Below are positions 25,296 to 44,537 of a stretch of DNA of 64,000 bases, one piece after another. The DNA lies in NCBI RefSeq assembly GCF_000305785.2, contig NC_018868.3, positions 1,536,001-1,600,000 on the forward strand, written 5' to 3'. This stretch comes from Simiduia agarivorans SA1 = DSM 21679. Lineage in GTDB: Bacteria; Pseudomonadota; Gammaproteobacteria; Pseudomonadales; Cellvibrionaceae. The position numbers and the translations under genes were made by a program. The notes beneath the pieces were generated by a model. The model ran no database searches, was not told the DNA's origin, and saw only the letters and a list, made by a program, of their open reading frames with translations. The first letter of the stretch is position 1. Each line of letters starts with the position of its first letter.

Positions 25296-25321
25296 CCGCT
25301 AAGCGTCTCCACGCTTAGCGG
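25296..25321 (-). other. Perfect 11-bp hairpin containing the stop codon of the YceI gene
   Basis: CCGCTAAGCGT (25296-25306) pairs with 25311-25321 around the loop CTCC. The stop codon TAA of the YceI-like gene (25315-25317) lies inside one arm. Little U tract follows on the minus strand. It may be an mRNA-stability or partial terminator structure between yceI and the lipoprotein gene. Confidence 0.55.
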
Positions 25322-25953: not shown

Positions 25954-27180
25954 TCAAGCCCGCCAGCGTTTGAATATCAACGAGGTGTTGATACCGCCAA
26001 AGGCAAAGTTGTTGGACATGACATAGTCGCAGTCAATGGCCCGGCACTCGTCGCGGATATAATCGAGGGCGCCACATTGCGGATCCGGGTGTTGCAGATT
26101 GCAAGTGGGGTGAAACCAACCTTCATTCATCTGATGGATTGCCGCCCAGGCTTCGATGGCACCGCAGGCACCGAGTGTGTGCCCGGTATAACTCTTCATG
26201 GCACTGATAGGCACAGTATCACCAAACAGGCGCGCAGAGGCTTGCGATTCCGCCACATCGCCTCGGTCCGTGGCCGTGCCGTGGGCTGAGATGTAGCCAA
26301 TATCCGACGGTTTCAGTCCGGCGTCGACCAGCGCCAGGCGCATGGCCTGCTCCATCGTCTCGGTATTGGGCTGGGTGACATGTAAGCCGTCGGAATTGGT
26401 GCCAAAGCCCACCACCTCAGCATAAATGGTGGCCCCGCGCGCTTCGGCCGACTCCAGCGACTCCAGAATCAGACTGCCGGCGCCTTCGCCAATGACCAGG
26501 CCGTCGCGATCCCGGTCAAATGGCCGCGGCGTGGCTTCTGGTTTGTCGTTACGGGTACTGGTGGCAAACAAGGTGTCAAACACCGCCGCTTGAGTGGCGC
26601 ATAACTCTTCGGCACCACCCGCCACCATCCACCGTTGCTGACCGGCGCGAATCGCTTCGTACGCCAGACCAATGCCTTGACTGCCCGAGGTACAGGCACT
26701 GGAGGTGGTGTAAACCCGACCTTTCAGTCCAAAAAACACACCCACATTCACAGGCGCGGTATGAGCCATCATCTTGATATAGGAGTTGGCGTTCAGCCCA
26801 CCGGTGTCTTCCTCAATCAGCATGCGACCAAAATCCACAAACGCCGACGTCGAGCCGGCGGACGAACCATAGGCAATCCCCATGGAGCCATCCTGAATCG
26901 CAGGGTCCTTCAACAGGCCCGCTTGCTCCAATGCCAGTTCAGTGGCGCGGGTTGCCATAATGGCCACCCGGCCCATACTGCGCACCATTTTGCGGGTGTA
27001 GTGGGCGGGGGTTTCGAATTCCGCCGGGCCGCCCAAGCGCGTGATAAGGCCGTTGTATTTGTCCCAATCGGGCATGTAGCGGATACCGGTGCGGCCGGCA
27101 CGAAGATTGGCAGACACACTGTTCCAGTCATTGCCAATGGGCGTAATGGCTTGCAAGCCGGTTACAACAACACGATTCAT
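25954..27180 (-). CDS. Aryl polyene cluster: beta-ketoacyl-ACP synthase (ApeR-like)
   Basis: A 408-residue FabF-type ketosynthase with an intact Cys-His-His triad: SACTSGSQGI, HGTATDRGD and GHTLGACGA. The start ATG at 27180 overlaps the stop of the upstream ketoreductase (TGATG); an in-frame GTG lies two codons earlier. In aryl polyene clusters the second ketosynthase, ApeR, is thought to help start chains or extend alongside the KS/CLF pair. It is the last core gene of a 20-gene minus-strand run. Confidence 0.9.
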   Translation of the reverse strand: MNRVVVTGLQAITPIGNDWNSVSANLRAGRTGIRYMPDWDKYNGLITRLGGPAEFETPAHYTRKMVRSMGRVAIMATRATELALEQAGLLKDPAIQDGSMGIAYGSSAGSTSAFVDFGRMLIEEDTGGLNANSYIKMMAHTAPVNVGVFFGLKGRVYTTSSACTSGSQGIGLAYEAIRAGQQRWMVAGGAEELCATQAAVFDTLFATSTRNDKPEATPRPFDRDRDGLVIGEGAGSLILESLESAEARGATIYAEVVGFGTNSDGLHVTQPNTETMEQAMRLALVDAGLKPSDIGYISAHGTATDRGDVAESQASARLFGDTVPISAMKSYTGHTLGACGAIEAWAAIHQMNEGWFHPTCNLQHPDPQCGALDYIRDECRAIDCDYVMSNNFAFGGINTSLIFKRWRA

Positions 27181-27905
27181 CAGCACAAACCACCATTTAC
27201 CGAGATCACCTGACGGGTGATATAACCGGCGTCCTCCGACATTAAAAACGCCACCGCGGCGGCCACTTCGTTCACCTGCCCCAGACGTTGCGCCGGGATC
27301 ATTTTCAATGCGTGCTCCGCCACTTCCTCGCTCACCATTTCGGTTTCAATCAAACCGGGAGCCACACAATTGACGGTAATTTTCCTTTTCGCCAGCTCCA
27401 GTGCCAAAGCTTTGGTGGCACCTATCAGGCCAGCCTTTGCCGCCGAATAATTCACCTGGCCACGATTACCCATGACCCCTGACACGGACGACATCACCAC
27501 TATGCGCCCCGGCTGACGCCGGCGCACCATGGGCATGGTAAGCGGGTGCAGTACGTTATAAAAACCGTCCAGGTTGGTGTGCACCACCTGGTCCCAGTCT
27601 TCATCGGTCATGGCGGGGAAAGCGGTATCTCGCGTGACACCTGCATTGCACACGACGCCGTAATAGGCGCCATGCTGCTCGATATCGGCGTCAATGGCCG
27701 CCCGCGCTGCGGCGCGATCGGCCACATCAAATTGCAACACGCGTACACTGCGCCCGATATCGCGGATACGTTCCGCCACGACTTCGGCCTGCGCCATGCC
27801 ATTCCGGCAATGTAATACCAGATCAAAGCCTTCGCGCGCCAAACGCTCGGCGATGGCCGCCCCTATGCCCCGGCTGGAGCCTGTCACTAACACTGTCTTG
27901 CTCAT
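27180..27905 (-). CDS. Aryl polyene cluster: 3-oxoacyl-ACP reductase (ApeQ-like)
   Basis: A 241-residue short-chain dehydrogenase/reductase. It has the NADPH motif TGSSRGIGAAIAERL, CNAG, and the catalytic SSVSGVMG with YSAAK (Ser-Tyr-Lys), as in FabG. It reduces the beta-keto group after each polyene extension. The ATG at 27905 has AGGA upstream; the upstream extension begins with TTG. It lies between the hotdog dehydratase and the last ketosynthase, the same order as in known clusters (KS, DH, KR, KS). Confidence 0.92.
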   Translation of the reverse strand: MSKTVLVTGSSRGIGAAIAERLAREGFDLVLHCRNGMAQAEVVAERIRDIGRSVRVLQFDVADRAAARAAIDADIEQHGAYYGVVCNAGVTRDTAFPAMTDEDWDQVVHTNLDGFYNVLHPLTMPMVRRRQPGRIVVMSSVSGVMGNRGQVNYSAAKAGLIGATKALALELAKRKITVNCVAPGLIETEMVSEEVAEHALKMIPAQRLGQVNEVAAAVAFLMSEDAGYITRQVISVNGGLC

Positions 27906-27940
27906 AATCCTGCAATACTGCTTGTTGTTTTCACTTTCAT

Positions 27941-28411
27941 TCAATTGCCAGCGGCCAGAAAGGCGGCCGGATCTTCTGGCTCAAATACATTCAGGTTGGC
28001 ACTCACCTCGATGCCTTCCGCGGCGACACGGCAATCAAACACGGACAGACCGTTGTCGCCTTTGAGCAGTGGTTTCACGCATACCGTCAGCTGTGTGCCC
28101 GACGCAAAAAACGCTACGTTGCTCCGGTACTTGCGGGTTCCTACTAAAAAACCCAGTTCCACTTTACCTCCTGCGCTCAGGGCCAGATGACCGGCGTAAG
28201 CGGCCACTGCCTGCGCCATATACTCAATCGCCACCAGCGCCGGTACGCCGTCGGATTCGTAAAACGGGCTGTCGGACTCAATCGACACGCCCGCTACCAA
28301 TCCCTTGTCGGACACCGTTAACACCTGCTGCAACAGGCTCATGGGCTGGTCGTGAGGTACCAACTGCAATACCGGCCAGGGTGATGCTGTGCCACCGATA
28401 TCGGCCATCAT
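27941..28411 (-). CDS. Aryl polyene cluster: hotdog-fold dehydratase (ApeP-like)
   Basis: A 156-residue hotdog protein. The central helix segment GVPALVAIEYMAQAVAAYAG corresponds to that of FabZ/FabA, with the Glu kept. The ATG at 28411 begins two bases after the stop of the previous ketosynthase (TGAAATG) and the SD AGGG lies nearby. It is predicted to dehydrate the beta-hydroxyacyl chain on ACP, together with the other hotdog protein at 38943-39308. The catalytic His is not obvious, which could mean this subunit forms a heterodimer with that partner (inference). Confidence 0.85.
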   Translation of the reverse strand: MMADIGGTASPWPVLQLVPHDQPMSLLQQVLTVSDKGLVAGVSIESDSPFYESDGVPALVAIEYMAQAVAAYAGHLALSAGGKVELGFLVGTRKYRSNVAFFASGTQLTVCVKPLLKGDNGLSVFDCRVAAEGIEVSANLNVFEPEDPAAFLAAGN

Positions 28412-28412
28412 T

Positions 28413-29594
28413 TCATCCCTGATCATGGTCATCCCCCTGTGCCAACAGCAACGCGATATTATTTCCACCAAACGCAAAAGAACTGCTCATGGCGATGCGC
28501 GGCGCAGACTCTGGCCAGTGGGTATCGCCGGCAACCAATTGCAGCGACGCCAACTCTGGATCGAATTCACCATCCCAACGGTGCGGCGGCAATCGCCCGG
28601 CTTGCAGCGCCAATGCGCAAATGCCCGCCTCCAGCGCGCCCGCAGCCCCAAGGGTATGGCCGGTAAAGGGTTTGGTGGAACTGGCTTTCACAGTGCCCAA
28701 CACCCGCTGTACCGCAAATGACTCCATTTTATCATTGAGCGCTGTGGCTGTACCGTGCAGATTCAGGTAGGTGACGAACGATGCGTCCAGCGCCGCATCC
28801 GCCAATGCGCCATTCAGCGCCCGCTCAGCACCATGCCCTTCCGGATCGGGCGCGGAGATATGGTGTGCGTCGGACGACTCGCCCACACCCAGCAATGCAA
28901 TCGGCCCGGGTTCACGCGACATCAGAAACAGCGCGGCACCCTCACCGATGTTGATACCATTGCGGTTAACGCTCATGGGGTTGCATGGACTGGCAGATAT
29001 GGCCTCCAACGCGCCAAAACCCCGTACCGTAAGCGCACAGAGCGCATCGGCGCCACCAGCAATCACCCAATCAACCAGCCCGGCGTTCAATAGGCGCCGG
29101 CCACTGGCCAGGGCTTTGGCGCCGGACGTACAGGCCGTCGACAGGGTATAAGCAGGGCCGGTGACGCCAAGCCTTTGTGCCAGAAAAGCGGCAGGTGCCG
29201 CGATCTGCTGTTTGGCGTAATCGGGCGCCCGGTTCATGCCGGGGGCGAAACAGGCTTCACTTTCACTGATACCTGAGGTGGACGTGCCAATTATCACCGC
29301 TACCCGACTGAGATCCACGCCGGTGGCGATGGCCTGCCAATCATCGGCGATTTGCTGCCAGGCCGACCAGAGTATCTGGTTGTTGCGACTGCACTCGTGC
29401 TCTGACCAGGCACTCGTATCGGGCAGAGGCGCGTTTACCCGGCCAACAGGCAGCGGTTGTCCGGGACTGTAGTCATCGGTCACGGTCAATGGCGAAGAAA
29501 AGGCAGCATCCCACAAACTTTGACGGTGCGCCTCTTTGCCAATGCCCAAGGCAGAAGTGAGACCGTAGTTGTGTAAAAAAACGGGTTTCGTCAT
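28413..29594 (-). CDS. Aryl polyene cluster: beta-ketoacyl-ACP synthase (ApeO-like)
   Basis: A 393-residue ketosynthase with Cys in STACTSGAKALASG, His in LHGTATALNDKME and His in FTGHTLGAAG, so it is catalytically complete. It is the likely chain-elongating KS that pairs with the chain-length-factor-like protein at 42483-43202. The ATG at 29594 overlaps the stop of the FAD enzyme by ATGA. Confidence 0.92.
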   Translation of the reverse strand: MTKPVFLHNYGLTSALGIGKEAHRQSLWDAAFSSPLTVTDDYSPGQPLPVGRVNAPLPDTSAWSEHECSRNNQILWSAWQQIADDWQAIATGVDLSRVAVIIGTSTSGISESEACFAPGMNRAPDYAKQQIAAPAAFLAQRLGVTGPAYTLSTACTSGAKALASGRRLLNAGLVDWVIAGGADALCALTVRGFGALEAISASPCNPMSVNRNGINIGEGAALFLMSREPGPIALLGVGESSDAHHISAPDPEGHGAERALNGALADAALDASFVTYLNLHGTATALNDKMESFAVQRVLGTVKASSTKPFTGHTLGAAGALEAGICALALQAGRLPPHRWDGEFDPELASLQLVAGDTHWPESAPRIAMSSSFAFGGNNIALLLAQGDDHDQG

Positions 29595-30823
29595 GCTTCG
29601 GCCTCGCGCATGCGGATCAATTCCACCAATGCATTTAATCGACGATCCGCCTGCACCACGTAGGGGTTGTCCGTATCCCATACATAGCCGGCCAATATGG
29701 AGCTGATCATGCCTTTAATCCGTTCATTCTGTTGCGGCGAAAAAATAACGTCCTGAAAACGGCCGTCATACCAGGCAGTGACGTAGGTTTTAAAGCATTC
29801 GATACCAGGCTTAAGCCGCTCAGTGTAATCGCGCTGCCAATCCACCGGCTTGCCGGCCAACTGCCGGATCACCAGCGCCGATGCCAATTGCGCAGATTTA
29901 AACGCGATGGCCACGCCCGACGAAAACACGGGATCGAGAAATTCTCCGGCATTGCCAAGCAGGGCAAAACCGTCACCGTGCAATGACGACACATCTGCAG
30001 CGTAACCTTTTATCTGCCGCACGTCTGCGCACACTGTGGCATTGGCGAGCAGCGCACTGAGTGCCGGTAATTCGGCAAGCCAGGCCGCCAATCGTGACTC
30101 AGGATCGGCACCACGGCTGTCCAATACCGCGGCTTCTGCCACCACACCCACCGAACAGCGGCCCTGCGACAACGGAATCAACCAGAACCACACGTCATTA
30201 TGTTCGGGGTGCACATTGACGAGAATTTTGTTGCGATCAAAGGCCAGATCAGCAATGCCATCCTCCACATGTGTGAACAGCGAGCTGCGCACCGGAAAAG
30301 GGCTGGGTTTTTCCAACCCAAACAACCGGGGCAATACCCGGGCAAACCCCGATGCATCCAGTACAAATTTCGCCAACTCGGTACTTTCACCCGCCGGCCC
30401 CCGCAACTGAATCGAAGATAGCCCCTTGGTGCGCGAAAGGTTGGTGACTTCTGTCTCGAATCGGAGGTCGGCGCCGCGCTTAGCCACTTCATCGGCCAAT
30501 AGCTGATCAAAGCGAGCGCGTTCTACCTGGTAAATGGTACCCGGGCCGGGACTGTATTTTCGCTCAAAATCGAACGCGGTATAACGCTCGCCACATCGAA
30601 AGGCAGCGCCGTTTTTAAACTGGAAGCCGGCGTCGTGTACGCACTGATCCAAGCCCGCTTGTTCAAGAAATGTCATACACGCGGGCAGTAAGCTTTCACC
30701 AATAGAGAAACGCGGAAACCGGTTTCGCTCCAAGACCAATACCCGCAATCCCTTCTGCAGTAACAGAGCAGCGGCCAGACTACCCGCCGGCCCTGCGCCG
30801 ATAATCGCTACATCATAAATCAT
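29591..30823 (-). CDS. Aryl polyene cluster: FAD-dependent halogenase-like oxidoreductase
   Basis: A 410-residue flavoprotein of the tryptophan/phenol halogenase-like family. It shows GAGPAG at 9-14 for FAD, GFQFKNGAAF at 66-75 (the lysine region of flavin halogenases, K70), a second FAD segment LLGNAGEFLDPVFSSGVAIAF, and WFWLIP at 212-217, matching the halogenase WxWxIP motif. Halogenation of the aryl head is known for xanthomonadins and flexirubins. Many relatives in aryl polyene clusters are only called FAD oxidoreductases, and some do not halogenate, so hydroxylation or another oxidation remains possible. The gene overlaps both neighbours by four bases. Confidence 0.8.
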   Translation of the reverse strand: MIYDVAIIGAGPAGSLAAALLLQKGLRVLVLERNRFPRFSIGESLLPACMTFLEQAGLDQCVHDAGFQFKNGAAFRCGERYTAFDFERKYSPGPGTIYQVERARFDQLLADEVAKRGADLRFETEVTNLSRTKGLSSIQLRGPAGESTELAKFVLDASGFARVLPRLFGLEKPSPFPVRSSLFTHVEDGIADLAFDRNKILVNVHPEHNDVWFWLIPLSQGRCSVGVVAEAAVLDSRGADPESRLAAWLAELPALSALLANATVCADVRQIKGYAADVSSLHGDGFALLGNAGEFLDPVFSSGVAIAFKSAQLASALVIRQLAGKPVDWQRDYTERLKPGIECFKTYVTAWYDGRFQDVIFSPQQNERIKGMISSILAGYVWDTDNPYVVQADRRLNALVELIRMREAEA

Positions 30824-31380
30824 GGCAGATTCCTGCCTGGCGCCTGTACATCCAGAGCCTGTACGGAAATTGTTGTCACCTGTAATTCAGGTCCTTGCGC
30901 TTGGGTTATTTTGACGCTCGAAAAAGGCGCGAGACTATCAAACTGGAATACCATGTAAGGCGTCCCGTTGCGATACACTTGTCTCAATGCCCGATCCTTA
31001 TCTTCGGTTAGGCTCCAACCCGCCGGCATAGCGGCATTGATATCGGCCAGCGGCCAATAGGCCCACTGAATCTGACGAATCAGTTGGTGCAATTGGTTCG
31101 CGGGAATATCCGGCAATGCATGACGAATCCGTATTTCACCGTCTTGTTGCGAAATATTAAACAAAAGCTGGCCTGCAAGACTGAGCCCCGCCAGGCTGAA
31201 TACATTGCTCTCACGGCTCCAGACCACATTGAATTGCCTTTGTCCCTGCGGCGCTGGCACGCTCACCAATTGGTTTACCTGGACATTCTGGCCCAGCGCT
31301 TCAGGTAACAGCAACGGCGGTGTCTGCGCACACGCCGCCAGCAACAAACCCCAAAAAACCAATATCAGAGCGCGTAACAT
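30820..31380 (-). CDS. Aryl polyene cluster: DUF3261 lipoprotein
   Basis: A 186-residue lipoprotein (lipobox LAAC, Cys17), matching the DUF3261 family that is found almost only in aryl polyene clusters. It is thought to act with the LolA-like and MMPL proteins in moving the pigment lipid to the outer membrane. It starts at 31380, overlapping the methyltransferase stop by one base, and ends over the ATG of the FAD enzyme. Confidence 0.85.
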   Translation of the reverse strand: MLRALILVFWGLLLAACAQTPPLLLPEALGQNVQVNQLVSVPAPQGQRQFNVVWSRESNVFSLAGLSLAGQLLFNISQQDGEIRIRHALPDIPANQLHQLIRQIQWAYWPLADINAAMPAGWSLTEDKDRALRQVYRNGTPYMVFQFDSLAPFSSVKITQAQGPELQVTTISVQALDVQAPGRNLP

Positions 31381-32465
31381 CAGTTCACCAACCGGCATTC
31401 CAACAGGGTATGACTCACGCCGATATCATCGGTGGTGGCCACAATTTCCATGCCCGCCGCCTCCACGCAACGGCGAAAGACATCGGAGTGATACATCTGG
31501 CTATTGCCGTTGGCCAGGCAGGTAAAATACAGCGAAGTCTGCTGCAGACAGAAGGCCCCGGCCTCGAATTTCTGACGGTCCCAGAAAGTTTCCATGATAA
31601 AAATCCGGGTATCTTCATCAGACACAGCCGCAACCTTGTTCAGAATGCCGGTAATTTCTGCATCGGAAAAACAATCGAGAAACTGGCTCATCCACACTAC
31701 ATCATGCCCCTTGGGCAAACCCAGCTCCGGATTCAGAATATTGGTGGGGTAAAAGCTCACCCGGGCCGCACCTGCATGATCTTTTATTGCTTGCGTGGCC
31801 AGCGCCACCTGCTGCGGCAAATCCACCAGCGTGACCTGAACTTTGTCATCATGGCTCACACAGGCTCTCGCCCACTTGCCGGTATTACCACCAATATCCA
31901 TTAACCGGGTTACCGGCTTGGCAAACACCTTGTCCATGACCAGGCCAAACGAACCGTCTGAATAGTAGTGATCAAACGCCAGCCAGCTCTTCAGCTGTTG
32001 TTCGGTGAGCGAGGACAAACCTTCGTAAATGGTGGACCAATCGCCCAATGCCTTCAGGCCTGCCGGCTCACCTTTTTCAATGGCTTCATCCAGATGAAAA
32101 AAACCCTGGTAATTAATGTCGTGATTGAAATCGAAATTGGCGATAGTCATGGGGTCTGTCAGCACGAACAACCCGGTTTTCGTGAGGCGGTAGCTGCCAT
32201 CGTTTAAAGTGCAAAGGCCGATACCCAAAGAAGCTTCCATCAATACCCGCACACCATAATCGCTGATATTCGCTTGCGCCTGCAGCTGCTCCAGTGTGAC
32301 ACCCCGGCGGCCAGCACCGGATACAATCTCGAGCAAACCGAATTTACGCAAGCAACGTGCAGCCTGAAATGCCAGAGGGCCAAAGGCCAGCTTTTGCGCT
32401 TCATAACGTGCATCGAGCGCGGTAAGTTTATCGTCGGTAAAGTAAACGGGCCGATTATCGGTCAT
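31380..32465 (-). CDS. Aryl polyene cluster: SAM-dependent methyltransferase
   Basis: A 361-residue enzyme of the O-methyltransferase type: an N-terminal helical dimerisation region, then a SAM motif MDIGGNTGKWARAC near residue 190 and VTLVDLPQQVALA. It probably methylates the aryl head group, as in known aryl polyenes. It lies 15 bases after the MMPL gene. Confidence 0.88.
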   Translation of the reverse strand: MTDNRPVYFTDDKLTALDARYEAQKLAFGPLAFQAARCLRKFGLLEIVSGAGRRGVTLEQLQAQANISDYGVRVLMEASLGIGLCTLNDGSYRLTKTGLFVLTDPMTIANFDFNHDINYQGFFHLDEAIEKGEPAGLKALGDWSTIYEGLSSLTEQQLKSWLAFDHYYSDGSFGLVMDKVFAKPVTRLMDIGGNTGKWARACVSHDDKVQVTLVDLPQQVALATQAIKDHAGAARVSFYPTNILNPELGLPKGHDVVWMSQFLDCFSDAEITGILNKVAAVSDEDTRIFIMETFWDRQKFEAGAFCLQQTSLYFTCLANGNSQMYHSDVFRRCVEAAGMEIVATTDDIGVSHTLLECRLVN

Positions 32466-32480
32466 CGGTTTTCCTCAAAA

Positions 32481-34712
32481 TTATTCGGTATCAGATTTTA
32501 CGATGGGTTGCACCATTAGAGGCACCAGCAACCACACCAGTAGAAGGCCGTATGCGGCCACAGTGCCAAAACTTTTCAACACAGGCGTGGTGCACAATGC
32601 CAGGAGCCCAAACGCCAGTAGACTGGTGAGAATGGACAGACTGGCTCCGCGCCAGGCCTCCGGGCCTGGACTGCGAGCGAAAAAAATGCTGCTGTCAAAC
32701 CCCACACCCAACACCAACAAAAGCGCAAGGCAATGAAATAAATTGACGCCGCCATCCATTACTGCCACAAGCCACAGAACAGCGATGGCTGCCACCAGTG
32801 GCGAAGCCAGTAACAGTGCACCCGCAAGGCCATAGCGAAACCACAAGGTGAGGGTCAACACAACCATCGCCACCTGCACCCACAACAACAACCAATGGCG
32901 ATACTTGGCCAATAAGTCACTCAGCTCTGCGCCCCGGTCAACATAGGTCCACGAACCCTGCGGCAAATTCGCCAACTGATCGGTTGTGAGCACGAATTCC
33001 GGGTAAACGAATGCCAGGGTTGCGGATGGCAGCAGATAAAGCGCTGCGAGTTCCGCGTTCACATGATCGAGTGTCATGGGTAACTCAGCTATTGCTGCGA
33101 TAGCCTCGTCCGCCATAGACTCTGCGCCCAATGCAGAGAACCAAACCGGCAAACTGGCTTGGTAGAATTGTGACAGGCGCGCGAAATCGGACATTTGCTG
33201 TGTCTTTTCAGGCAACCATTGTCTGACGCTCTGAGACTCAATACCCTGTGCGTTTAAAGCGGACTCCAGTGTCTGCAACTCTTTGAACAAATCATCGCTG
33301 TCATGACCTCGCACCAAGAAATAGCGCCCCGGTCGCGGTGCCTGGCTGATGGTTAAAAGCGCTTGCTCCTGGGCCAACATACTTTCGGTAGAGGTTTGCA
33401 GGCTGGCCACCTGATCCCGGCCAGGCAACCACAATAATGACACCAGCGCCAATACCAGTATCCCGAGTGATACACGGGGAAAGGCTGGCACTTTTGCAGC
33501 CAGCTGACGCCATGCGTCGGCCAGATTGAATAACGGTTGCACAAGTCTGGAACGGCTCGGCGACTCGGCATGTTCCGGCAACCATAAAACCACCGACAAC
33601 CAACTGGCCGCCAACCCTACGCAACTGAACAGTGCCATTTGTGTAAGCCCCGGCATGTGCACCGCAGCCTGCAAGCCATAGGCTACCAGACTGGTGAACA
33701 GCCCCAGCCCCAGAGCCGGCAGCAACTGACGGAAAGTCTGGCCATGCTGTTGGCCATTGCGTGCGTGGATGCCATAGTCAATGGCCACACCAATAAGTGA
33801 CGCACCAAAGGCCAGCGTAATCAGATGCAGACGCTCAAAACTCCACACGCTGACCACCAACGCGATCAGCAAACCCGCACTCAATGACGCCAATAAAATC
33901 AGGCTCGAACGACCAAAGGCGGCAGCTAGTACCAGGATCACACCCAACAGTGAACCCAGACCGATAAAACTGATTTCATCGCGCGCCTGATGCGCGCCAT
34001 GCGCCGCGTGAAATACCATGCCCGATTGCAATAGCTGCACGCCTTCTGGCAAACCGGCGCGCAGTGAGTGGACCAATGCCGGTAAAGGCGTCGTTAACGC
34101 CTGAGCAAAAGCATCGGTGGACAGTTCGTATTGCAGCAGGCGCCAGTGCAGACCGTCCAGCAACCGGCTGGGATAACCCTGATCCAATTGCAGCGCCGAT
34201 GCACGGGCTTGCTGTTGCAAAAAATTCTGAAACAAAAACAAAGGATCCTTTACCGGATCATAGCGGCCGTCGCCCACCGGGGCATACAAGCGCAAGCGCG
34301 CGGCGTCGATTATCGCCTGTGGTGAAGATTGCATTGCTTGCCGGTCGTCTGTTGCCAGCAGGTGATAGCGATGCGGCCAATAGGATTGCCACAACTGCTG
34401 AGCTTGCCGGCCCGGCTCGATGTAGCGCCAGTCACCATCCGCCAATTCACGCCGGACCTGCTCTGCCGCCGCCAGACTTGTTTCTGCATCAGCCGCCCCC
34501 ACCGCCAGTAAAAAGCGGTTGCTGCTCAATTGCGCCAGATGCTTATCTGCCTCAATCCGCGCGTCATACCATTCGCTGCGGGCATGGTCGGGCAGCAGCG
34601 CCAACAAGTCAGTATCAAATTGGTAATCCGGCAAACGCCAGATCAGCGATAATGCCGCTGTCAGCACCAACACCAGCCAGCCTTTGGCCAGCAATGGGCG
34701 TTGCCCCTTCAT
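32481..34712 (-). CDS. Aryl polyene cluster: MMPL/RND-type membrane transporter
   Basis: A 743-residue inner membrane protein with about 12 helices in two halves, each with a large periplasmic loop. Motifs such as ASLIGVAIDYGIHARNG and LLVLGVGFDSSIFFARS match MMPL exporters. It is thought to deliver the acyl-aryl polyene lipid across or out of the inner membrane to the LolA-like protein. Its ATG overlaps the LolA-like stop. Confidence 0.9.
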   Translation of the reverse strand: MKGQRPLLAKGWLVLVLTAALSLIWRLPDYQFDTDLLALLPDHARSEWYDARIEADKHLAQLSSNRFLLAVGAADAETSLAAAEQVRRELADGDWRYIEPGRQAQQLWQSYWPHRYHLLATDDRQAMQSSPQAIIDAARLRLYAPVGDGRYDPVKDPLFLFQNFLQQQARASALQLDQGYPSRLLDGLHWRLLQYELSTDAFAQALTTPLPALVHSLRAGLPEGVQLLQSGMVFHAAHGAHQARDEISFIGLGSLLGVILVLAAAFGRSSLILLASLSAGLLIALVVSVWSFERLHLITLAFGASLIGVAIDYGIHARNGQQHGQTFRQLLPALGLGLFTSLVAYGLQAAVHMPGLTQMALFSCVGLAASWLSVVLWLPEHAESPSRSRLVQPLFNLADAWRQLAAKVPAFPRVSLGILVLALVSLLWLPGRDQVASLQTSTESMLAQEQALLTISQAPRPGRYFLVRGHDSDDLFKELQTLESALNAQGIESQSVRQWLPEKTQQMSDFARLSQFYQASLPVWFSALGAESMADEAIAAIAELPMTLDHVNAELAALYLLPSATLAFVYPEFVLTTDQLANLPQGSWTYVDRGAELSDLLAKYRHWLLLWVQVAMVVLTLTLWFRYGLAGALLLASPLVAAIAVLWLVAVMDGGVNLFHCLALLLVLGVGFDSSIFFARSPGPEAWRGASLSILTSLLAFGLLALCTTPVLKSFGTVAAYGLLLVWLLVPLMVQPIVKSDTE

Positions 34713-37244: not shown

Positions 37245-38206
37245 GGATTTTCAGCTTCTTTAAAATCATGGTCGGTTTTCTGGCGTTCATCGATGCGCCA
37301 GAAATCGTAAAAATTGCCCCACTGCAAGGGAAATTGGCGGGCAAATTCCCCCAGTCTGTCGGCAAACTGCTGAACATAGGGCTGCAGTGATGCTTCCCTT
37401 TGGCCACGTTTCATAATCAGCCGATCTGCCAGGGGTTGTAAGTGAATATCGTAGCGATTGCCGGTTTTCACACAGCAAAGAAAAAACACCGGTCGACGCA
37501 AAAGCGCAGCCAGCATAAACGGGCCCAGCGGAAAATCTGCAGCCTCGCCCAGAAATTCAGCCGATAGGAGACGTTCATTGCGCGCACCCTCGCCCACCGC
37601 CGTCCGGTCACCGGCAATCGCCAACAGCTCACCCGCCGACAATCGGTCCGAAAGCATCATGGCGGTAGCCGGTGAAATATCAGTCACCTGAATTAAATTG
37701 ATCGCGCGCTTACCCGACACGTCGCTCACCATGCGGTTGAATTTTTCGGCATGTGCGGTATGCACCAAAGCGTTGACCTGCGCTCTCTCCCACCGCTCAG
37801 CCAAGGCCATACTGATATCCACATTACCCATGTGAGCCACCAACAACACCGCCCCTTCGCCTTTCGCAATCAATTGATCGAGCGGATCGAAGCCGTGGAT
37901 AACAAATTCCGAGTCCAGACAATCAAACCAGATGGCGAGTTTGTCCAGCAGCAATTCACCATAGGTCATGAAGTGGGTAAAGCTTTGCCATCCGCGACGC
38001 CAAGCAGACCAATCCGCATTATCCGTGGCACGCGCAAGAAAATCCAAAGACGCGCGCCGCGCAGTACCTTTAAATAAAAAGAAATACAGCATGACCGGTA
38101 ACAGAAACAACCGAAACAAAGCTCGACCAAAAAAACGGTAGGTTATGAACAGTATTTTCAAACCGAGTAATGATCCGGCTTCTTTTTTTTCCGACCAATG
38201 GCTCAC
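37241..38206 (-). CDS. Aryl polyene cluster: LpxL-like acyltransferase
   Basis: A 321-residue membrane-associated acyltransferase with an N-terminal hydrophobic stretch. The HX4D motif lies in VAHMGNVDISMALAERW, and the C-terminal FPLGPFMLAALLRRPVFFL is typical of the LpxL/HtrB family. It probably adds an acyl chain to the glycosyl or lipid part of the pigment. GTG at 38206 overlaps the glycosyltransferase stop (GTGA), and the sequence downstream begins the conserved region. Confidence 0.82.
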   Translation of the reverse strand: MSHWSEKKEAGSLLGLKILFITYRFFGRALFRLFLLPVMLYFFLFKGTARRASLDFLARATDNADWSAWRRGWQSFTHFMTYGELLLDKLAIWFDCLDSEFVIHGFDPLDQLIAKGEGAVLLVAHMGNVDISMALAERWERAQVNALVHTAHAEKFNRMVSDVSGKRAINLIQVTDISPATAMMLSDRLSAGELLAIAGDRTAVGEGARNERLLSAEFLGEAADFPLGPFMLAALLRRPVFFLCCVKTGNRYDIHLQPLADRLIMKRGQREASLQPYVQQFADRLGEFARQFPLQWGNFYDFWRIDERQKTDHDFKEAENP

Positions 38207-38946
38207 AGTGCGCGACCTCGCTTCTGCAAACCGAGCAACCAAAGAGGCCAGCGCCACAACATGCCGAAAAACAGCCGGGCATGCATACAGGAAATCAACC
38301 AATTGTCCATACCCGGTAGAAAATGAGATACGCCGTCTTCAGGGTAATGCACGCGAGTGGAAAGCTGCTTTACATCACCGCCGCGCCAAAACCAGCGCAC
38401 CAGTACCTCAGGATCAAAATCCATGCGGTTCCCGGTGTATTCCTGCTCCAACAACTGGCATACCGCCGCCAGCGGATAGACACGAAAACCACACATGGAG
38501 TCTTTCAATGCCCCAGAGAGCGTATTAATCCACACCCACACATGCGTCAGGTAGCGCCCATACAGGCGCGCCTTTGGAATAGAGGAATCATATTCCGGCA
38601 CGCCACAAATCAGTGCCTGCGGATTTTCAGTTGCCGCGTCGAGAAAACGTTGCACATCACTCAGATTGTGCTGACCATCGGCATCCACTTGCAGCGCATG
38701 GCTATAGCCCAACGTTAATGCATGCATCAGGCCTGCCTTGACCGCGCCGCCTTTACCGAGGTTTTCGGACAGTTCCACCAGAGCCACACCCGGCCCGGCT
38801 GCAAGCGTTCGCAACACTTCCGTACAATGGGCATCACTGCCGTCGTTCACCAGCACCACCGGCAAGCCATGGGCACGCACCTCCGCCAGTGTTCTGCCCA
38901 CCGCCAGTGCATGGTTGTAAACCGGGATTACTGCACAAACTTTCAT
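38203..38946 (-). CDS. Aryl polyene cluster: family 2 glycosyltransferase
   Basis: A 247-residue GT2 enzyme with CAVIPVYNHA, VVLVNDGSDA and VDADGQH (DxD-type metal site), resembling dolichol-phosphate mannosyltransferases. A hydrophobic tail (HARLFFGMLWRWPLWLLGLQ) suggests membrane attachment. It likely adds a sugar to the lipid anchor of the aryl polyene. It overlaps neighbours at both ends. Confidence 0.88.
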   Translation of the reverse strand: MKVCAVIPVYNHALAVGRTLAEVRAHGLPVVLVNDGSDAHCTEVLRTLAAGPGVALVELSENLGKGGAVKAGLMHALTLGYSHALQVDADGQHNLSDVQRFLDAATENPQALICGVPEYDSSIPKARLYGRYLTHVWVWINTLSGALKDSMCGFRVYPLAAVCQLLEQEYTGNRMDFDPEVLVRWFWRGGDVKQLSTRVHYPEDGVSHFLPGMDNWLISCMHARLFFGMLWRWPLWLLGLQKRGRAL

Positions 38947-39308
38947 GCCACAACCACCAATCGTCCGGAGGAATAATGCTTTTCACCCGCGCTGTAGGCA
39001 AAACCAAGGCGTTGCCTGTCGCGCTCCAGCGTTAACACCAGTTCAACCGAATCACCCGGCCTTACCACCTGCTGAAATTTCACCACCTCGAGGTTTGAGG
39101 CGCGACGGATCCATTCGCATTCTGGCCAGAGCGCAAACCCCAGCTGTCTGGCCCAGTTCATCTGAACGACGCCCGGCAGAATGGGCGTATCGGGAAAATG
39201 CCCATCAAACCAGAAAAGATCATCCTCTATGCGCAGTCGCAAGCGGCAAACGTCTGATGCAGGACCATCCTGCAATTCAATGCGAGGCATCAGAGGTTTA
39301 TCAGCCAC
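38943..39308 (-). CDS. Aryl polyene cluster: hotdog dehydratase (ApeI-like)
   Basis: A 121-residue FabZ/ApeI-type hotdog protein. The catalytic His lies in FDGHFPDTPILPGVVQMNW, close to the FabZ signature HFPGxPVxPG. It probably works with the ApeP-like hotdog protein on polyene intermediates. GTG at 39308 is preferred because GGAG lies five bases upstream; an ATG at 39290 would remove six residues. Confidence 0.88.
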   Translation of the reverse strand: MADKPLMPRIELQDGPASDVCRLRLRIEDDLFWFDGHFPDTPILPGVVQMNWARQLGFALWPECEWIRRASNLEVVKFQQVVRPGDSVELVLTLERDRQRLGFAYSAGEKHYSSGRLVVVA

Positions 39309-40653
39309 ACGAATTCTCCGTCAATAATTCCCGCACCAGCTGCTGCAGCCGGTGATGTTCCAGCTTGCCCTGGGTATTGCGGGGAAGCTGATCTACAAAG
39401 CGCCAACGGCGTGGCAGTAAAGGTCGCTCAACCACCGCCGCCAGCGTGGCCTTGAGCTCCGCAATCAACGCACGACGATTTTCTGTCAAACGCCGAACAC
39501 CGGCATCACTCAGCACGGCGATAACCAGCAATTCATCCCGACCGGCTACCTGACCCTGGCGGTGATAGGACTCTATACGCACGTCCACCAGCGAATGATG
39601 GGCCAGCAGCGCCTGCTCCAGCTGCTCCAGAGACACCCGCTTGCCTTCCACTTTGGCAATCCGGTCAACGCGCCCCAATAGCAAAAAATTCTGTCCCACC
39701 AGCTCGGCCCTGTCATCGCAGCGATGCCAGTTTTGGTCCTGCAAATGGGGCGACTGAATAAGCAGAATGCCCTGCGCATCGGCCCTCACTGCCACCCCGG
39801 GCAAAGGCCGCCAGGCGCGTTCACCCAGATGCTGGCAGCGCCAGCCAATACCGCCGGTTTCGGTACTGCCAAACACCTCTACCACCTGTGCATCAAACTG
39901 ACTGGCTGCCTGGCAACTGGCCGATTCAGGCAATGGCGCACCAGAACTGAAAATAGTGGCAACTCGAGGCTCGTTAACAGTGGGCGGCAAACGGGTCAGG
40001 TGCGTGGGACTGGTTACCCATATCAATTGCTTTGCCGGGTAGTGCGTAAGCGTTTCGGTATAACGTAAATTTTCAGCGGTAAACACCCGCCCTCTCATCA
40101 CCGGCCACAGCAAACGGAACAGAAAACCGTAAATATGCTGATGCGAAACCGACGACACTACCAGCGAATCACCCAGGCGCTCACCAAAACAGCGCTCAAG
40201 TGTTTCCACTTCGTTAAACAACTGGCGAGCGTTTTTTTCAACACATTGCGGCGCGCCGCTGGAACCCGAGGTAAAAAACGAAATGGCCGGTTCGGTCCCG
40301 GTTGCCACTTTCGATCTCTGCGAGTCCGCATTGGCCGAAGCCTGGGTGCCGACCGGAAAATCACCGAGAAAACCATCGACCCTGTGACTCATCGCAGCGC
40401 AGGTTGCGGGCAAATTATTGGGTGCCAGACAAGGTTGCCCGCCCGCTTCCCATACCGCCAACACATGCGCAAGACAGGCAATGCTGTCTTCAAAAAACAG
40501 CGCCCACCGGCCACCAAGGTCTGGCAGGGTGGTGCGAATAGCCGCCACTTGGCGCAACAAGTCTGCCGCAGACACGGCCACATCGGCATCGGACAAAGCG
40601 ATCACACGGGATGGCTCCGCCGTTAAACGCTCCATTAGCAACTGAACACTCAT
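39301..40653 (-). CDS. Aryl polyene cluster: AMP-dependent acyl ligase (ApeH-like)
   Basis: A 450-residue adenylating enzyme. The ATP loop is FFTSGSSGAPQCVEK; VVEVFGSTETGGIGWR, then DRAELVGQNFLLLGRVDRIAK, are the A5 to A8 regions. It is expected to activate a benzoate or cinnamate-type acid and load it on an ACP as the starter unit. The ATG at 40653 overlaps the stop of the COG4648-like gene (ATGA). Confidence 0.88.
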   Translation of the reverse strand: MSVQLLMERLTAEPSRVIALSDADVAVSAADLLRQVAAIRTTLPDLGGRWALFFEDSIACLAHVLAVWEAGGQPCLAPNNLPATCAAMSHRVDGFLGDFPVGTQASANADSQRSKVATGTEPAISFFTSGSSGAPQCVEKNARQLFNEVETLERCFGERLGDSLVVSSVSHQHIYGFLFRLLWPVMRGRVFTAENLRYTETLTHYPAKQLIWVTSPTHLTRLPPTVNEPRVATIFSSGAPLPESASCQAASQFDAQVVEVFGSTETGGIGWRCQHLGERAWRPLPGVAVRADAQGILLIQSPHLQDQNWHRCDDRAELVGQNFLLLGRVDRIAKVEGKRVSLEQLEQALLAHHSLVDVRIESYHRQGQVAGRDELLVIAVLSDAGVRRLTENRRALIAELKATLAAVVERPLLPRRWRFVDQLPRNTQGKLEHHRLQQLVRELLTENSCG

Positions 40654-41219
40654 AACCGCCCGGCTCCGGCAATGCGAGCCTGCACCCGACGGCGCACCAA
40701 CCATTCAATGCCTGCAATCAACGCCATCAACCCATACGCCACCAGCCCGTTATACAAAAGCCAGGTCGCCCTGTCGGCCCAAAGTGCGGTGTAAAGGGCG
40801 ATACTGCCGTTAAAGATAAAAAAGCCACACCAGACCTGGGTAACGATGCGGGTATATCGCACCGCTTCCAGAGGCAGATCGGGCTGCTGAATGCGCGCCA
40901 GTTTTTCCACCAGAGACTGAGCGGAAAATAAACTGGTAAAGAACAGGGCAAACAAACTGGCATTTACCAATACCGGATATAGGAGCAACCCCAGATCGGA
41001 GTCCAACACCCATGACAAGGTTGCGAGTACCAGAATAGCCAGCCCCCAAACCACTCGAGCCCAACCATTCGCCAATTGCCAGCCGAACAACCGCAAGCCC
41101 GCGATACACACTAACGCCAGCACCAGATAGCGTGGCGAGGTGAGTTGCGAACCGAAGTAGATTGCGAAAGGGTATGCGACAGTCAGCAGCGCAAATCCCG
41201 CAGTGGCCAGCCGCGCCAT
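40650..41219 (-). CDS. Aryl polyene cluster: COG4648-like membrane protein
   Basis: A 189-residue integral membrane protein with about five helices, matching the COG4648 family typical of aryl polyene clusters. The function is unknown; it may help anchor the enzyme complex or lipid transfer. It overlaps the ligase gene. Confidence 0.82.
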   Translation of the reverse strand: MARLATAGFALLTVAYPFAIYFGSQLTSPRYLVLALVCIAGLRLFGWQLANGWARVVWGLAILVLATLSWVLDSDLGLLLYPVLVNASLFALFFTSLFSAQSLVEKLARIQQPDLPLEAVRYTRIVTQVWCGFFIFNGSIALYTALWADRATWLLYNGLVAYGLMALIAGIEWLVRRRVQARIAGAGRL

Positions 41220-41223
41220 GGAT

Positions 41224-41469
41224 TCAGTTCACCAGTTGGTGAACCACATCCACGACGTCAGACACGGTGCGTACAGCCTTAAAATCATCTGGCTGAATGG
41301 CTTTGCCGGTCATTTTTTTCAGCTCTACCACCATATCCACGGCATCAATGGAATCGATATCCAGGTCGTCGTAAAGGTGCGCATCCAGCACGATCGCGTC
41401 GGCGTCCAGCTCAAACATATCCACGAGAATGGTGCGAATGGATCCAAATACCTGCTCTTTGGTCTGCAT
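41224..41469 (-). CDS. Aryl polyene cluster: acyl carrier protein (ApeF-like)
   Basis: An 81-residue acyl carrier protein. The phosphopantetheine Ser lies in LDIDSIDAVDMV. It is more acidic and shorter than its partner. The gene begins where the other ACP ends (shared base at 41469). Confidence 0.92.
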   Translation of the reverse strand: MQTKEQVFGSIRTILVDMFELDADAIVLDAHLYDDLDIDSIDAVDMVVELKKMTGKAIQPDDFKAVRTVSDVVDVVHQLVN

Positions 41470-41723
41470 TATTTTGCCCCCGACACGAAGGCAACCAGTG
41501 CGTTTACCGAGGCAAAGTGCGCGCGGGTTTCTTCCGAATCGGCGTCCAGCTTCACGCCGTACTGCTTTTGCAGTGCAAGCCCCAACTCCAGCGCGTCGAT
41601 CGAATCCAGCCCCAGGCCTTCAACAAACAAGGGTTCGTCGGACACTATGTCGTCCGGGGTGATGTCTTCGAGATCGAGTGTATCGATAATGAGTTGTTTC
41701 AACTCAAGTTCCAGCGACGCCAT
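41469..41723 (-). CDS. Aryl polyene cluster: acyl carrier protein (ApeE-like)
   Basis: An 84-residue acyl carrier protein with the attachment Ser in GLGLDSIDALEL. It carries the growing polyene or starter chain. Its start overlaps the end of the acyltransferase gene by 20 bases. Confidence 0.92.
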   Translation of the reverse strand: MASLELELKQLIIDTLDLEDITPDDIVSDEPLFVEGLGLDSIDALELGLALQKQYGVKLDADSEETRAHFASVNALVAFVSGAK

Positions 41724-42495
41724 GGGTTCTTAGCTCCTCGGTAAAATAATCTTCCAATGATCGGGTCAGTTTTCTCGCCGCCAAAGCCGGCGGCATGTGT
41801 TCATAGACGGATGAAACCGGTAACTCCGGCATCGCAGTCAAGCGCATAGTGAAGGGACCGTCGGCCGGAATCTGATACCAGGGACGGTGCTTGGTGAGCG
41901 TATCCGGTTCTACAGTAATCAATACCGGCCGGATAGGTTGCCCCAAACGAAGCGCTACATTGGCGGCCCCGCGCTGCATCCGGATAGGTTTGCCGGGCAC
42001 AGTGCGCGTGCCCTCCGGGAAAATAATCAGGCTATTACCTCGACGCAGGGATGCCCGGGCGGCCTCCAATACCTGCTCGGGATCGTTATTGGCGATATAA
42101 CCAGCCAGACCAATGACCCCACGCATAGTAGGGTTTTTCAACAGATTGGCCTTCACAACGCAATCTGCCTGAGGCAATACACTGATCAGGAACACAACGT
42201 CAATCAGCGACGGGTGATTGGCCAGAATCAACTGACCGGGTCTGCGCAAGTCATCCAGATGTCTGGCGTCGAATCGCATTATGCCAAGGCCCTGCATCAT
42301 ATGCATGAACGCCTTGAAGTTCACATGGACCAACCAGCGAGCCCTGCGCTCGCGGGCAACCCCCGCTGGCGTCAACAGCAGTATCGGAAGCGCATACAGA
42401 GGCAGCAACATACCCCCCACGCCAAAGACGGTGAAGGCCAGCCCGGTTGCAAACAGGCGCCATAACCAGTTGAGGCGCACTATCAGCTTTGCCAT
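41704..42495 (-). CDS. Aryl polyene cluster: lysophospholipid acyltransferase (PlsC-like)
   Basis: A 263-residue membrane-bound acyltransferase with the HX4D motif in ANHPSLIDVVF and FPEGTRTVPGK. An N-terminal membrane helix is present. It is likely to build the phospholipid or glycerolipid anchor of the pigment. GGAGG sits six bases upstream of the ATG at 42495, inside the end of the previous gene. Confidence 0.88.
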   Translation of the reverse strand: MAKLIVRLNWLWRLFATGLAFTVFGVGGMLLPLYALPILLLTPAGVARERRARWLVHVNFKAFMHMMQGLGIMRFDARHLDDLRRPGQLILANHPSLIDVVFLISVLPQADCVVKANLLKNPTMRGVIGLAGYIANNDPEQVLEAARASLRRGNSLIIFPEGTRTVPGKPIRMQRGAANVALRLGQPIRPVLITVEPDTLTKHRPWYQIPADGPFTMRLTAMPELPVSSVYEHMPPALAARKLTRSLEDYFTEELRTHGVAGT

Positions 42496-43202
42496 AACCA
42501 ACCTCCGGCGCCATCCTTCAGCGCCAGCGCACGCTCAGCGCCCGCTGACCACCAACGCAACCACGCAATGACCTCTGGCTCCTGCATGTATAGATCGGCT
42601 GAAGGGCATGCCGCCAAGGTGAGCGGCCGGCCTTCCTCCAGCGTTAATTCCAACGCCACTGCGTAGGCACAACTCTGATTATCGTGATACGAGTAATCCG
42701 CTGGCAACGGCAGGTCGTAGAGAACACACACTACGGCACGTGCACCGGACATCAGCTGGCCATAGGCTTCAATGACGGCGGCTGATAACAGGCGGGAATT
42801 CGCCGACAAGGCTGTGTGAGGACCGGTCGCCTTTTTCGCGATGGACAGCAAACCCGCCGTCGCGTTGTGTACGGACATACTGAACGCCGCTGGGGAAAGC
42901 GGGCTGCCTGCACCTATTTCGGACAATAACTGGAGCGTTTTGGCCTGGTCGCCGTGGCGTGAGGCAAAGACCAGAGACTGGTGATCACCGGGCTCTAACA
43001 TGTCCCATGCCACAGCGGCCACCGGCTTACCAAGGGGGCCAAGACGACGTCTCAGCATGGCAGGCACGGCGGCAACATCGGGCTGATCGGACTCAGCGGG
43101 CGCACGCTCGCCTGCCGCCCATTGAGCACATGCCGCCTGTCCTTGAATGCCGGGCAGCCAGGCGTTCCACCGCCTGACCGCAACCCGGGCTACACTGTTC
43201 AT
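42483..43202 (-). CDS. Aryl polyene cluster: chain-length-factor-like ketosynthase homologue (ApeC-like)
   Basis: A 239-residue protein of the Ketoacyl-synt_2 family. It keeps part of the ketosynthase core (FSMSVHNATAGLLSIA) but the active-site Cys is replaced by Asn/Ala, and the C-terminal half with the two His is missing. In aryl polyene systems this protein pairs with ApeO as chain-length factor. It is the first gene of the long minus-strand run. The 182-bp gap upstream is shared with a divergent gene and must hold both promoters. Confidence 0.85.
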   Translation of the reverse strand: MNSVARVAVRRWNAWLPGIQGQAACAQWAAGERAPAESDQPDVAAVPAMLRRRLGPLGKPVAAVAWDMLEPGDHQSLVFASRHGDQAKTLQLLSEIGAGSPLSPAAFSMSVHNATAGLLSIAKKATGPHTALSANSRLLSAAVIEAYGQLMSGARAVVCVLYDLPLPADYSYHDNQSCAYAVALELTLEEGRPLTLAACPSADLYMQEPEVIAWLRWWSAGAERALALKDGAGGWLWQS

Positions 43203-43384
43203 CGCTTATTATCCCGGTGGCTCTGTGACCACTCGATTGAAACCGGTTCTAGCGTACCAACCAGAAATTTAAGAACCGGGCATTTTAAAGCTTGCGCGTC
43301 GCTTGGCAAAGCTTTATCCCCGGCCTTGGCTGTCCAGCCAGTCACAATTACACTGTGTGCTCCCTATCTGAGAGGACACAAAGG

Positions 43385-43825
43385 ATGAAGACGCTTTGTT
43401 TGGTGGCAGCCACCGCAATTGCACTGGCGACCAGTTTCAGCACCCAAGCCCGCGATACCACCCATTTTCTGCCCATCGAAAAGGCGTTAGGGGCCGCGCA
43501 AGCCAGCGGCAAGATCGACGGAGGTGTAAAATTTTTCTTCGCAGACCAGGCCCATCCCGGCGTCGCCAAGGACTTCGGCACATTTACCACCAATAAAAAG
43601 ACCAATGCATTTGGCAAGTCAGATGCAACCGCCTGCGACTGGGCCATGCAGTCGGCACTGATTGAGCTGTTTAACCGCGCCGTGAAAGAAGGCGCCGATG
43701 CGGTGGTGGGCATTGAAAGCTATTACAAGAAAAACGTGTACAGCGATGCCGAAAAATATGAGTGCCATGCCGGCGCCATGGTTGCCGGTGTCGCCTTGCG
43801 CGGCAAGGTAGTGAAACTGAAATAG
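43385..43825 (+). CDS. Small periplasmic protein next to aryl polyene cluster, YbjQ-like fold
   Basis: A 146-residue protein with signal peptide (cleavage after TQA). The mature part has AADAVVGIESYY- and CHAGAMVAGVALRGKVVKL-like segments recalling YbjQ-type heavy-metal-binding folds. Homologues are often misnamed excinuclease ABC subunit A; there is no ATP-binding loop. AAGG directly precedes the ATG at 43385. It lies one base upstream of the phosphopantetheinyl transferase gene, so the two are co-transcribed. Confidence 0.78.
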   Translation: MKTLCLVAATAIALATSFSTQARDTTHFLPIEKALGAAQASGKIDGGVKFFFADQAHPGVAKDFGTFTTNKKTNAFGKSDATACDWAMQSALIELFNRAVKEGADAVVGIESYYKKNVYSDAEKYECHAGAMVAGVALRGKVVKLK

Positions 43826-43826
43826 C

Positions 43827-44537
43827 ATGCTCAGGCTGATTCTGGCACCGATTGTCGCGCCCTTATCTGACAAGCCCGCAAGTCCGTTTTTTTGTGCAGA
43901 CGAGTGGCGACGACTCGACCAGATCAGCCACCCCAAGCGACGCGCCGAGTATATTGCCGGCCACAAACTCCTGCGCATTGCCGTCAATCGGTACGCAACG
44001 GACCTGGGTATAGAGCTGTCATCGGCAGAATGGATTCAACCGCCGGCATCTGCGCCGCGATTGAAACACCAGCCTTCGCTTGTCACCAGTATCAGTCACA
44101 GCCAGGGTTGGGCATTGATAGCAATCGCCAGCATTGACCACACCTGCGCTCGCCTCGGCATCGACATCGAACTCAACCGACCCCGTAAAAACCTGGCGCA
44201 ATTGGCCCGCTATAGCTTTGGTAAAGAATGGGTTGAACAACACAATCACAATTTAGTAGAGGCGTTTTTTCTGCGCTGGACTCAATGCGAATCGGTGGTC
44301 AAAGCGAGCACCAAAACCCTCGGCACCCAACTCCTGAGTCAACAGGTATTTTCTGACACTCACCCTATTGGAATCCCCGGCCTGAGCGGCCGGATCAATT
44401 ACCCGGACTTGCCCGAGTTTACTTTGAGTATTGCTGGCCCTGAAAATAATAACGCCAGCCTGGAATTATTCACCCCGGAATCCAACCGATTCACCGCGCT
44501 CGCGCTGGATTGGCAATCCTGGTGGGCCGCCGATTAG
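43827..44537 (+). CDS. Sfp-type 4'-phosphopantetheinyl transferase
   Basis: A 236-residue enzyme that would attach phosphopantetheine from CoA to the two ACPs of the adjacent cluster. The Mg-binding LGIDIEL (Asp113, Glu115) and the third motif RWTQCESVVKA (151-160) are present. In the third motif the first Lys of WxxKExxxK is replaced by Cys154, while Glu155 and Lys159 are kept. It directly follows the small periplasmic protein gene and is convergent with the DUF486 gene, overlapping by four bases. Confidence 0.85.
   Translation: MLRLILAPIVAPLSDKPASPFFCADEWRRLDQISHPKRRAEYIAGHKLLRIAVNRYATDLGIELSSAEWIQPPASAPRLKHQPSLVTSISHSQGWALIAIASIDHTCARLGIDIELNRPRKNLAQLARYSFGKEWVEQHNHNLVEAFFLRWTQCESVVKASTKTLGTQLLSQQVFSDTHPIGIPGLSGRINYPDLPEFTLSIAGPENNNASLELFTPESNRFTALALDWQSWWAAD

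Follow-up and report, generated by a model that had tools for sequence, protein, structure and literature searches.

What does an aryl polyene pigment cluster do with both an aromatic ammonia-lyase and a halogenase-like flavin enzyme, and is that pairing peculiar to its host? The question is raised by a stretch of 64,000 nucleotides of Simiduia agarivorans SA1 = DSM 21679 (contig NC_018868.3, positions 1,536,001 to 1,600,000), referred to below as the window, in which an initial annotation had recognised such a cluster. Our analysis indicates that the region is almost certainly an ape-type aryl polyene cluster of a Simiduia species (Cellvibrionaceae). Its core operon is ordinary, and both the lyase and the halogenase-like enzyme occur widely alongside ape genes and are not peculiar to the strain. 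What is uncommon in the window is the hybrid arrangement of its accessory genes, wherein a methyltransferase gene occupies the slot between ApeM and ApeN while the flavin gene stands beside ApeO; the chemistry has precedents.

An intact cluster with the ape gene order

The cluster comprises twenty genes on the minus strand between positions 25954 and 43202 of the window, as first annotated. All 20 open reading frames (ORFs) were recovered there, each with one terminal stop. They are listed with the basis for each assignment; identities refer to homologues in E. coli strain 317.

25954..27186, minus strand: ApeR-type ketosynthase (PF00109/PF02801; 62% identity)
27180..27944, minus strand: ApeQ-type ketoreductase, FabG-like (PF13561/PF00106; 59% identity)
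27941..28477, minus strand: ApeP-type dehydratase (PF22817, ApeP-like)
28413..29594, longest ORF to 29681, minus strand: ApeO-type ketosynthase (PF00109/PF02801; likely start 29594)
29591..30823, minus strand: flavin-dependent halogenase-like enzyme, 410 amino acids (PF04820, Trp_halogenase/FAD-binding; PDB matches; motifs)
30820..31398, minus strand: ApeN-type DUF3261 protein (PF11659)
31380..32465, minus strand: FlxJ/ApeB-family methyltransferase in the ApeM-ApeN slot (NF053543; 45% identity)
32481..34712, minus strand: ApeM-type MMPL/RND exporter (28% identity to the positional homologue; weak HpnN match)
34709..35299, minus strand: ApeL-type LolA-like carrier (homologues at the equivalent place in related loci)
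35275..35730, minus strand: ApeK-type thioesterase (PF13279)
35712..37244, minus strand: aromatic amino-acid ammonia-lyase, predicted tyrosine ammonia-lyase (PF00221; 4-methylideneimidazole-5-one (MIO) motif)
37241..38302, minus strand: LpxL-type acyltransferase, matching the C-terminal half of E. coli ApeJ (PF03279)
38203..38946, minus strand: family-2 glycosyltransferase, matching the N-terminal half of E. coli ApeJ (PF00535; 54% identity to ApeJ 8-243)
38943..39308, minus strand: ApeI-type dehydratase (PF22818)
39301..40704, minus strand: ApeH-type acyl-ACP/AMP ligase (PF00501; ACP, acyl carrier protein)
40650..41219, minus strand: ApeG-type COG4648 membrane protein (52% identity)
41224..41469, minus strand: acyl carrier protein 2 (PF00550)
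41469..41723, minus strand: acyl carrier protein 1 (PF00550)
41704..42501, minus strand: ApeD-type lysophospholipid acyltransferase (PF01553)
42483..43202, minus strand: ApeC-type chain-length factor, ketosynthase N-domain only (PF13723)

Pfam assigns families to 17 of the 20 proteins, among them the ApeP-like and ApeI-like families, which are named after the ape pathway. The MMPL, LolA-like and COG4648 proteins have no Pfam match at E 0.001 and are recognised by homologues at the equivalent place in related clusters, so that the full set of aryl polyene parts described at the outset is indeed present. We find a type II ketosynthase (KS), a chain-length factor, a ketoreductase, ApeI and ApeP dehydratases, ACPs and a ligase, together with the ApeG, ApeL, ApeM and ApeN transport genes, in an order like that of E. 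coli apart from a displaced methyltransferase. None of the core genes is frameshifted, and with all 20 ORFs intact the idea of a decayed core was rejected. The GC content of the cluster (0.563) is similar to that of the window (0.570) and therefore gives no sign of recent import. The twenty genes include no regulator, as had been annotated. Counts of predicted promoters (9) and terminators (24) were uninformative, as shuffled sequence gave 9.3 and 24.7.

The genes had also been described as mostly joined by overlaps of 1-8 bases, and this part of the description has to be revised. With longest-ORF starts, 17 of the 19 junctions overlap and the remaining two leave 4 and 15 bases between the genes, but overlaps of 1-8 bases account for only 8 of the 19. 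Some of the longer ones result from the choice of start. The 91-base overlap between the flavin gene and the longest ORF of the ketosynthase is probably such an artefact: the stop of the flavin adenine dinucleotide (FAD) enzyme gene shares ATGA with an ATG at 29594, where the ketosynthase probably starts.

The ape cluster of E. coli strain 317, with gene roles as given in PMC8253772, has counterparts for 18 of the 20 window genes (17 found by tblastn, LolA by profile), colinear except for the methyltransferase. The E. coli order runs methyltransferase, chain-length factor, acyltransferase, two ACPs, COG4648-type gene, ligase, ApeI, ApeJ, thioesterase, LolA, MMPL, DUF3261, KS, ApeP, ketoreductase and KS, the COG4648 and ApeJ genes having been recognised through their match to window genes. 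ApeJ is one fused gene in E. coli, whereas the window has separate glycosyltransferase and LpxL-type genes, one for each half. The E. coli methyltransferase lies near the 5' end of its cluster, in contrast to the window gene in the ApeM-ApeN slot, and neither an ammonia-lyase nor a flavin enzyme was found in the E. coli cluster. The annotated order of ketosynthase, dehydratase, ketoreductase and ketosynthase holds against both this cluster and 80 loci from named genomes (the best 80 of 162 found in a scan for the flavin enzyme), and the same comparison upholds the ammonia-lyase and halogenase-like assignments. Ape clusters of Shewanella, Pseudoalteromonas, Microbulbifer, Methylobacter, Duganella and Cellvibrionaceae carry the lyase and the flavin enzyme with the same core order as the window. 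In those clusters the flavin gene is mostly found between ApeM and ApeN, whereas in the window the methyltransferase gene is there.

A slot for tailoring genes between ApeM and ApeN

To describe this position we annotated 111 loci with profiles of the window genes (the 80 named loci, the E. coli locus, 29 stretches from relatives and the window, a few genomes being present twice). The interval between MMPL and ApeO-type KS was compared in the 92 loci where both genes lie on the same strand and within reach of each other, the other 19 being dropped. It holds the flavin gene followed by DUF3261 in 67 of the 92 loci, and the flavin gene with DUF3261 unrecognised in eight more. DUF3261 alone was called in nine, two of which (L017, L065) do contain the flavin gene, and no gene was called in three. 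In four loci (G001, G033, G080 and G206) a methyltransferase gene precedes DUF3261. Methyltransferase, DUF3261 and flavin gene in that order are seen in the window alone. Across 91 flavin genes, 83 lie 450-1200 bases before the KS, one lies at 410 bases and two lie further away, while five have no KS on the same strand. The flavin gene is outside the slot and on the opposite strand in L034, L055, L074 and L133. A first impression that a flavin gene beside ApeO is unique was softened, as the two are adjacent also in G125 (L128), a rearranged fragment at a contig end.

Among the four methyltransferase loci, the slots of G001 and G033 hold only that gene and have no room for more; no flavin ortholog was found in either genome, G001 giving only a weak match at 8e-5. 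In G080 and G206, neither of which has a flavin ortholog at E 1e-80, a gene of about 400 codons lies between MMPL and methyltransferase (L129:5830-7044 and L130:5964-7202). Its products belong to sulfotransferase family PF13469 (E 4.5e-29 and 5.9e-26), are 33% identical to each other and have no NCBIfam match. The notion of a slot limited to two kinds of gene was rejected on account of these two genomes. As a side observation, G080 and G206 may make sulfated aryl polyenes.

The ApeM-ApeN position thus accepts flavin, methyltransferase or sulfotransferase genes, which we report here as new. Since precedents place both methylation and halogenation on the phenol ring, the slot may be a site of exchange for decorating genes. 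We see the window as a hybrid, and its slot arrangement therefore leads us to predict a product that is methylated and possibly halogenated. The fuller reading is offered tentatively, as we hold it somewhat short of an even chance: the flavin enzymes would form a widespread and so far unassigned family of ring halogenases acting on ape lipids, the slot would exchange halogenase, methyltransferase and sulfotransferase genes, and the window would combine two of these to give a methylated and halogenated aryl polyene lipid.

The methyltransferase itself scores 548.8 bits against the FlxJ-family model NF053543, slightly below the cut-off of 560. Orthologs turned up in ten of 293 genomes sampled across the order, and each of the ten has an ApeR ortholog, although in some (G055, G183) the methyltransferase is on a different contig. 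The idea that flavin and methyltransferase genes exclude each other was rejected, since six of these ten genomes also have the flavin gene; what stands is that the two share the slot. One cluster of G174 (L131) carries both, its flavin gene occupying the slot and its methyltransferase gene lying at the 5' end.

Proposed pathway and its alternatives

The gene content suggests a pathway in which the ammonia-lyase would convert tyrosine to 4-coumarate, to be loaded onto an ACP by the ligase. The ketosynthase/chain-length factor, ketoreductase and two dehydratases would extend this starter to a conjugated polyene, which the thioesterase, glycosyltransferase and acyltransferases would attach to a membrane lipid, and the MMPL, LolA-like and DUF3261 proteins would move the pigment to the outer membrane. 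Ring methyltransferase and flavin-dependent halogenase-like enzyme would decorate the phenol ring. If substrates are handled in this order, the product would be a yellow lipid anchored in the membrane. The cluster should methylate the aryl ring and probably halogenates it.

Precedents come from several pigment clusters. The flexirubin cluster (flx) of Chitinophaga pinensis uses a tyrosine ammonia-lyase (TAL) starter and methylates the aryl ring (PMC3992019), and the window shares this predicted starter and ring methylation, in a comparison made through NCBIfam models only. With xanthomonadin and arcuflavin the window shares a predicted aryl polyene and a halogenase-like gene, a likeness of description and not of halogenase sequence. 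They differ from the window in the starter, which xanthomonadin takes from a XanB2-type chorismatase. The arcuflavin starter has the same kind of source, and halogenases are reported in both the xanthomonadin (pig) and arcuflavin (arc) clusters (PMC3691225, PMC3949708). A literature search for ammonia lyase together with aryl polyene turned up nothing on point, and the words 'halogenase' and 'ammonia' are both absent from the main text of a Pseudoalteromonas paper (PMC9966250).

With regard to the flavin enzyme, we think it somewhat more likely than not that it halogenates the aryl ring. It carries all the marks of a halogenase, namely GxGxxG (9-14), Lys70, WFWLIP (212-217) and FLDPVFSSG (295-303). 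The defining residues of these four marks, including the catalytic Lys, WxWxIP and F..P..S.G, do not vary in any of the 92 aligned rows (the window plus those 91 of 100 loci that reach at least 45% identity and 90% coverage; four rows are identical to others). The 13 PDB matches ranking after the closest one either bear a halogenase label or are CmlS and ChlB4, the latter a halogenase; 3e1t, 'Halogenase', matches at E 6e-45. The gene also keeps company with ape genes, in clusters of many Proteobacteria: all 80 named loci kept hold at least three further ape-type genes. Of 58 relatives, 12 have it (E <= 2e-138), all 12 with an ApeR ortholog and 11 with the lyase. In the order-wide sample it is present in 49 of the 293 genomes, 43 of which have an ApeR ortholog (E 1e-110). 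Several observations weigh against a ring halogenase of the ape pathway. The closest solved structure, PDB 3nix (E 4.8e-102), is described only as a flavoprotein/dehydrogenase and has no halogenase label, the enzyme falls below all NCBIfam cut-offs, and its best model, CmlS, scores 147 of 900 bits, far under the cut-off. Six of the 49 genomes lack an ApeR ortholog at E 1e-110, and G065 has a lone flavin gene (L135:8735-9964) flanked by an MscS-type gene and secB, well away from the ape cluster of that genome. The structure match would fit a related flavin monooxygenase or oxidase acting on the ring or the polyene by hydroxylation or oxidation, as would the NCBIfam scores for a QhpG monooxygenase (112) and a geranylgeranyl reductase (126), which come fairly near that of CmlS. 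The hosts of the flavin gene also include Methylobacter and Duganella, genera of fresh water and soil and not of the sea. We nevertheless regard such an enzyme as less likely, given the invariant residues above. The meaning of these marks, WxWxIP and Fx.Px.Sx.G among them, is given in PMC5945002 and PMC7336383, and a suggested role of WxWxIP is to prevent monooxygenase activity in such enzymes (PMC5945002); the halogenases of the pig and arc clusters speak for the same side.

The starter can be weighed in a similar way. The cluster lyase belongs to the aromatic lyase family PF00221, and its MIO Ala-Ser-Gly motif is the same in all 81 aligned rows (the window plus 80 loci, with some genomes present twice). 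The position that we take to set selectivity, which agrees with 'motive 1' of the flexirubin lyase paper, is Phe-His in the cluster lyase, with Phe in 79 and His in all 81 rows. Tyrosine is not proven by this sequence, since TAL and histidine ammonia-lyase (HAL) models score alike: the lyase is under every NCBIfam cut-off, with 401 bits (of 1000) for the BagA/FevW TAL, 395 and 383 for HAL, and 322 of 700 for FlxA. These scores, and a second selectivity residue, His, that it shares with the other lyase of the genome, would suit a second HAL in a pathway that starts from 4-hydroxybenzoate made from chorismate, as in E. coli, as would flavin-bearing clusters in which no lyase is seen (L112/G012, L030). 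This we consider improbable. The other lyase scores higher against PF00221 (629 versus 538 bits), carries Ser-His at the selectivity pair and is likely HutH. The cluster type of lyase is called in 83 of the 111 annotated loci, mostly ape clusters, and in 41 of the 293 order-wide genomes, 38 of which have ApeR. FlxA of C. pinensis has a HAL-like motif 1 and yet is biochemically a TAL, preferring tyrosine over phenylalanine about 1000-fold (PMC3992019). By analogy with FlxA, a tyrosine to 4-coumarate start remains the likely one. The resemblance of lyase and methyltransferase to the FlxA and FlxJ models might also be taken to mean that the product is a flexirubin-like ester of polyene and dialkylresorcinol, the linkage by which flexirubin differs from the ape lipid (PMC3992019). 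We think this very improbable, as the gene order, the ApeI and ApeP families and the ApeJ-type glycosyltransferase/acyltransferase are those of the E. coli ape cluster; darA and darB were not seen among 30 window genes under Pfam, the rest of the genome not having been searched for them.

History within Simiduia

The window flavin gene groups with those of two relatives, G002 and G003, at a support of 100/97, its own branch being long (0.8). Its identity to the two is 61%, compared to 78% for the lyase and 80-81% for the ApeR-type ketosynthase. The MMPL, ligase, DUF3261 and LolA genes diverge from G002 and G003 even more, and the divergence of the flavin gene is therefore no proof of transfer. 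A recent foreign origin was considered and found unsupported, the gene being sister to the G002 and G003 copies despite its long branch. A very permissive tblastn for a flavin-gene remnant in G001 (L109) returned nothing below E 3.7. Elsewhere among the relatives, the ApeR-type ketosynthase of G005 (L123) is split over two frames, which suggests a decayed or misassembled cluster, and G007 and G028 (L118, L119) have two ApeR-type ketosynthases in tandem.

Neighbouring genes

Three genes flank the cluster.

25315..25899, minus strand: YceI-like protein, probable extra cluster member (PF04264)
43292..43825, plus strand: small divergent protein of 177 residues, secreted-looking by eye (no family match)
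43827..44537, plus strand: 4'-phosphopantetheinyl transferase (PF01648/PF17837)

Separated from the last KS by 54 bases, the YceI-like gene of the window has counterparts adjacent to the cluster in the other three Simiduia genomes: G001 has it at the same end as the window, G002 and G003 at the opposite end, close to the chain-length factor. Its product is a probable extra member of the cluster, possibly a periplasmic lipid carrier. At the opposite side, the divergent pair that was thought to supply a phosphopantetheinyl transferase is real, but the transferase is unlikely to work for the cluster alone, because it is the only one detected: it is the sole PF01648 match in the 4.3 Mb genome, and AcpS (TIGR00516) was not found there. 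Barring another transferase too divergent to detect, it must serve fatty-acid synthesis too, and this cluster-linked gene may be essential for that process. A similar transferase gene is near the cluster in stretches of G001, G002, G003, G017 and G054. The 177-residue gene is beside the cluster also in G001, G012, G017 and G054, and so in several genera, but no copy was found in the G002 and G003 stretches.

Implications

A slot in which the tailoring genes vary would offer a simple handle for predicting how an aryl polyene pigment is decorated. Within Simiduia, relatives with the flavin gene (G002, G003) and without it (G001) make the question of halogenation directly testable in close relatives.

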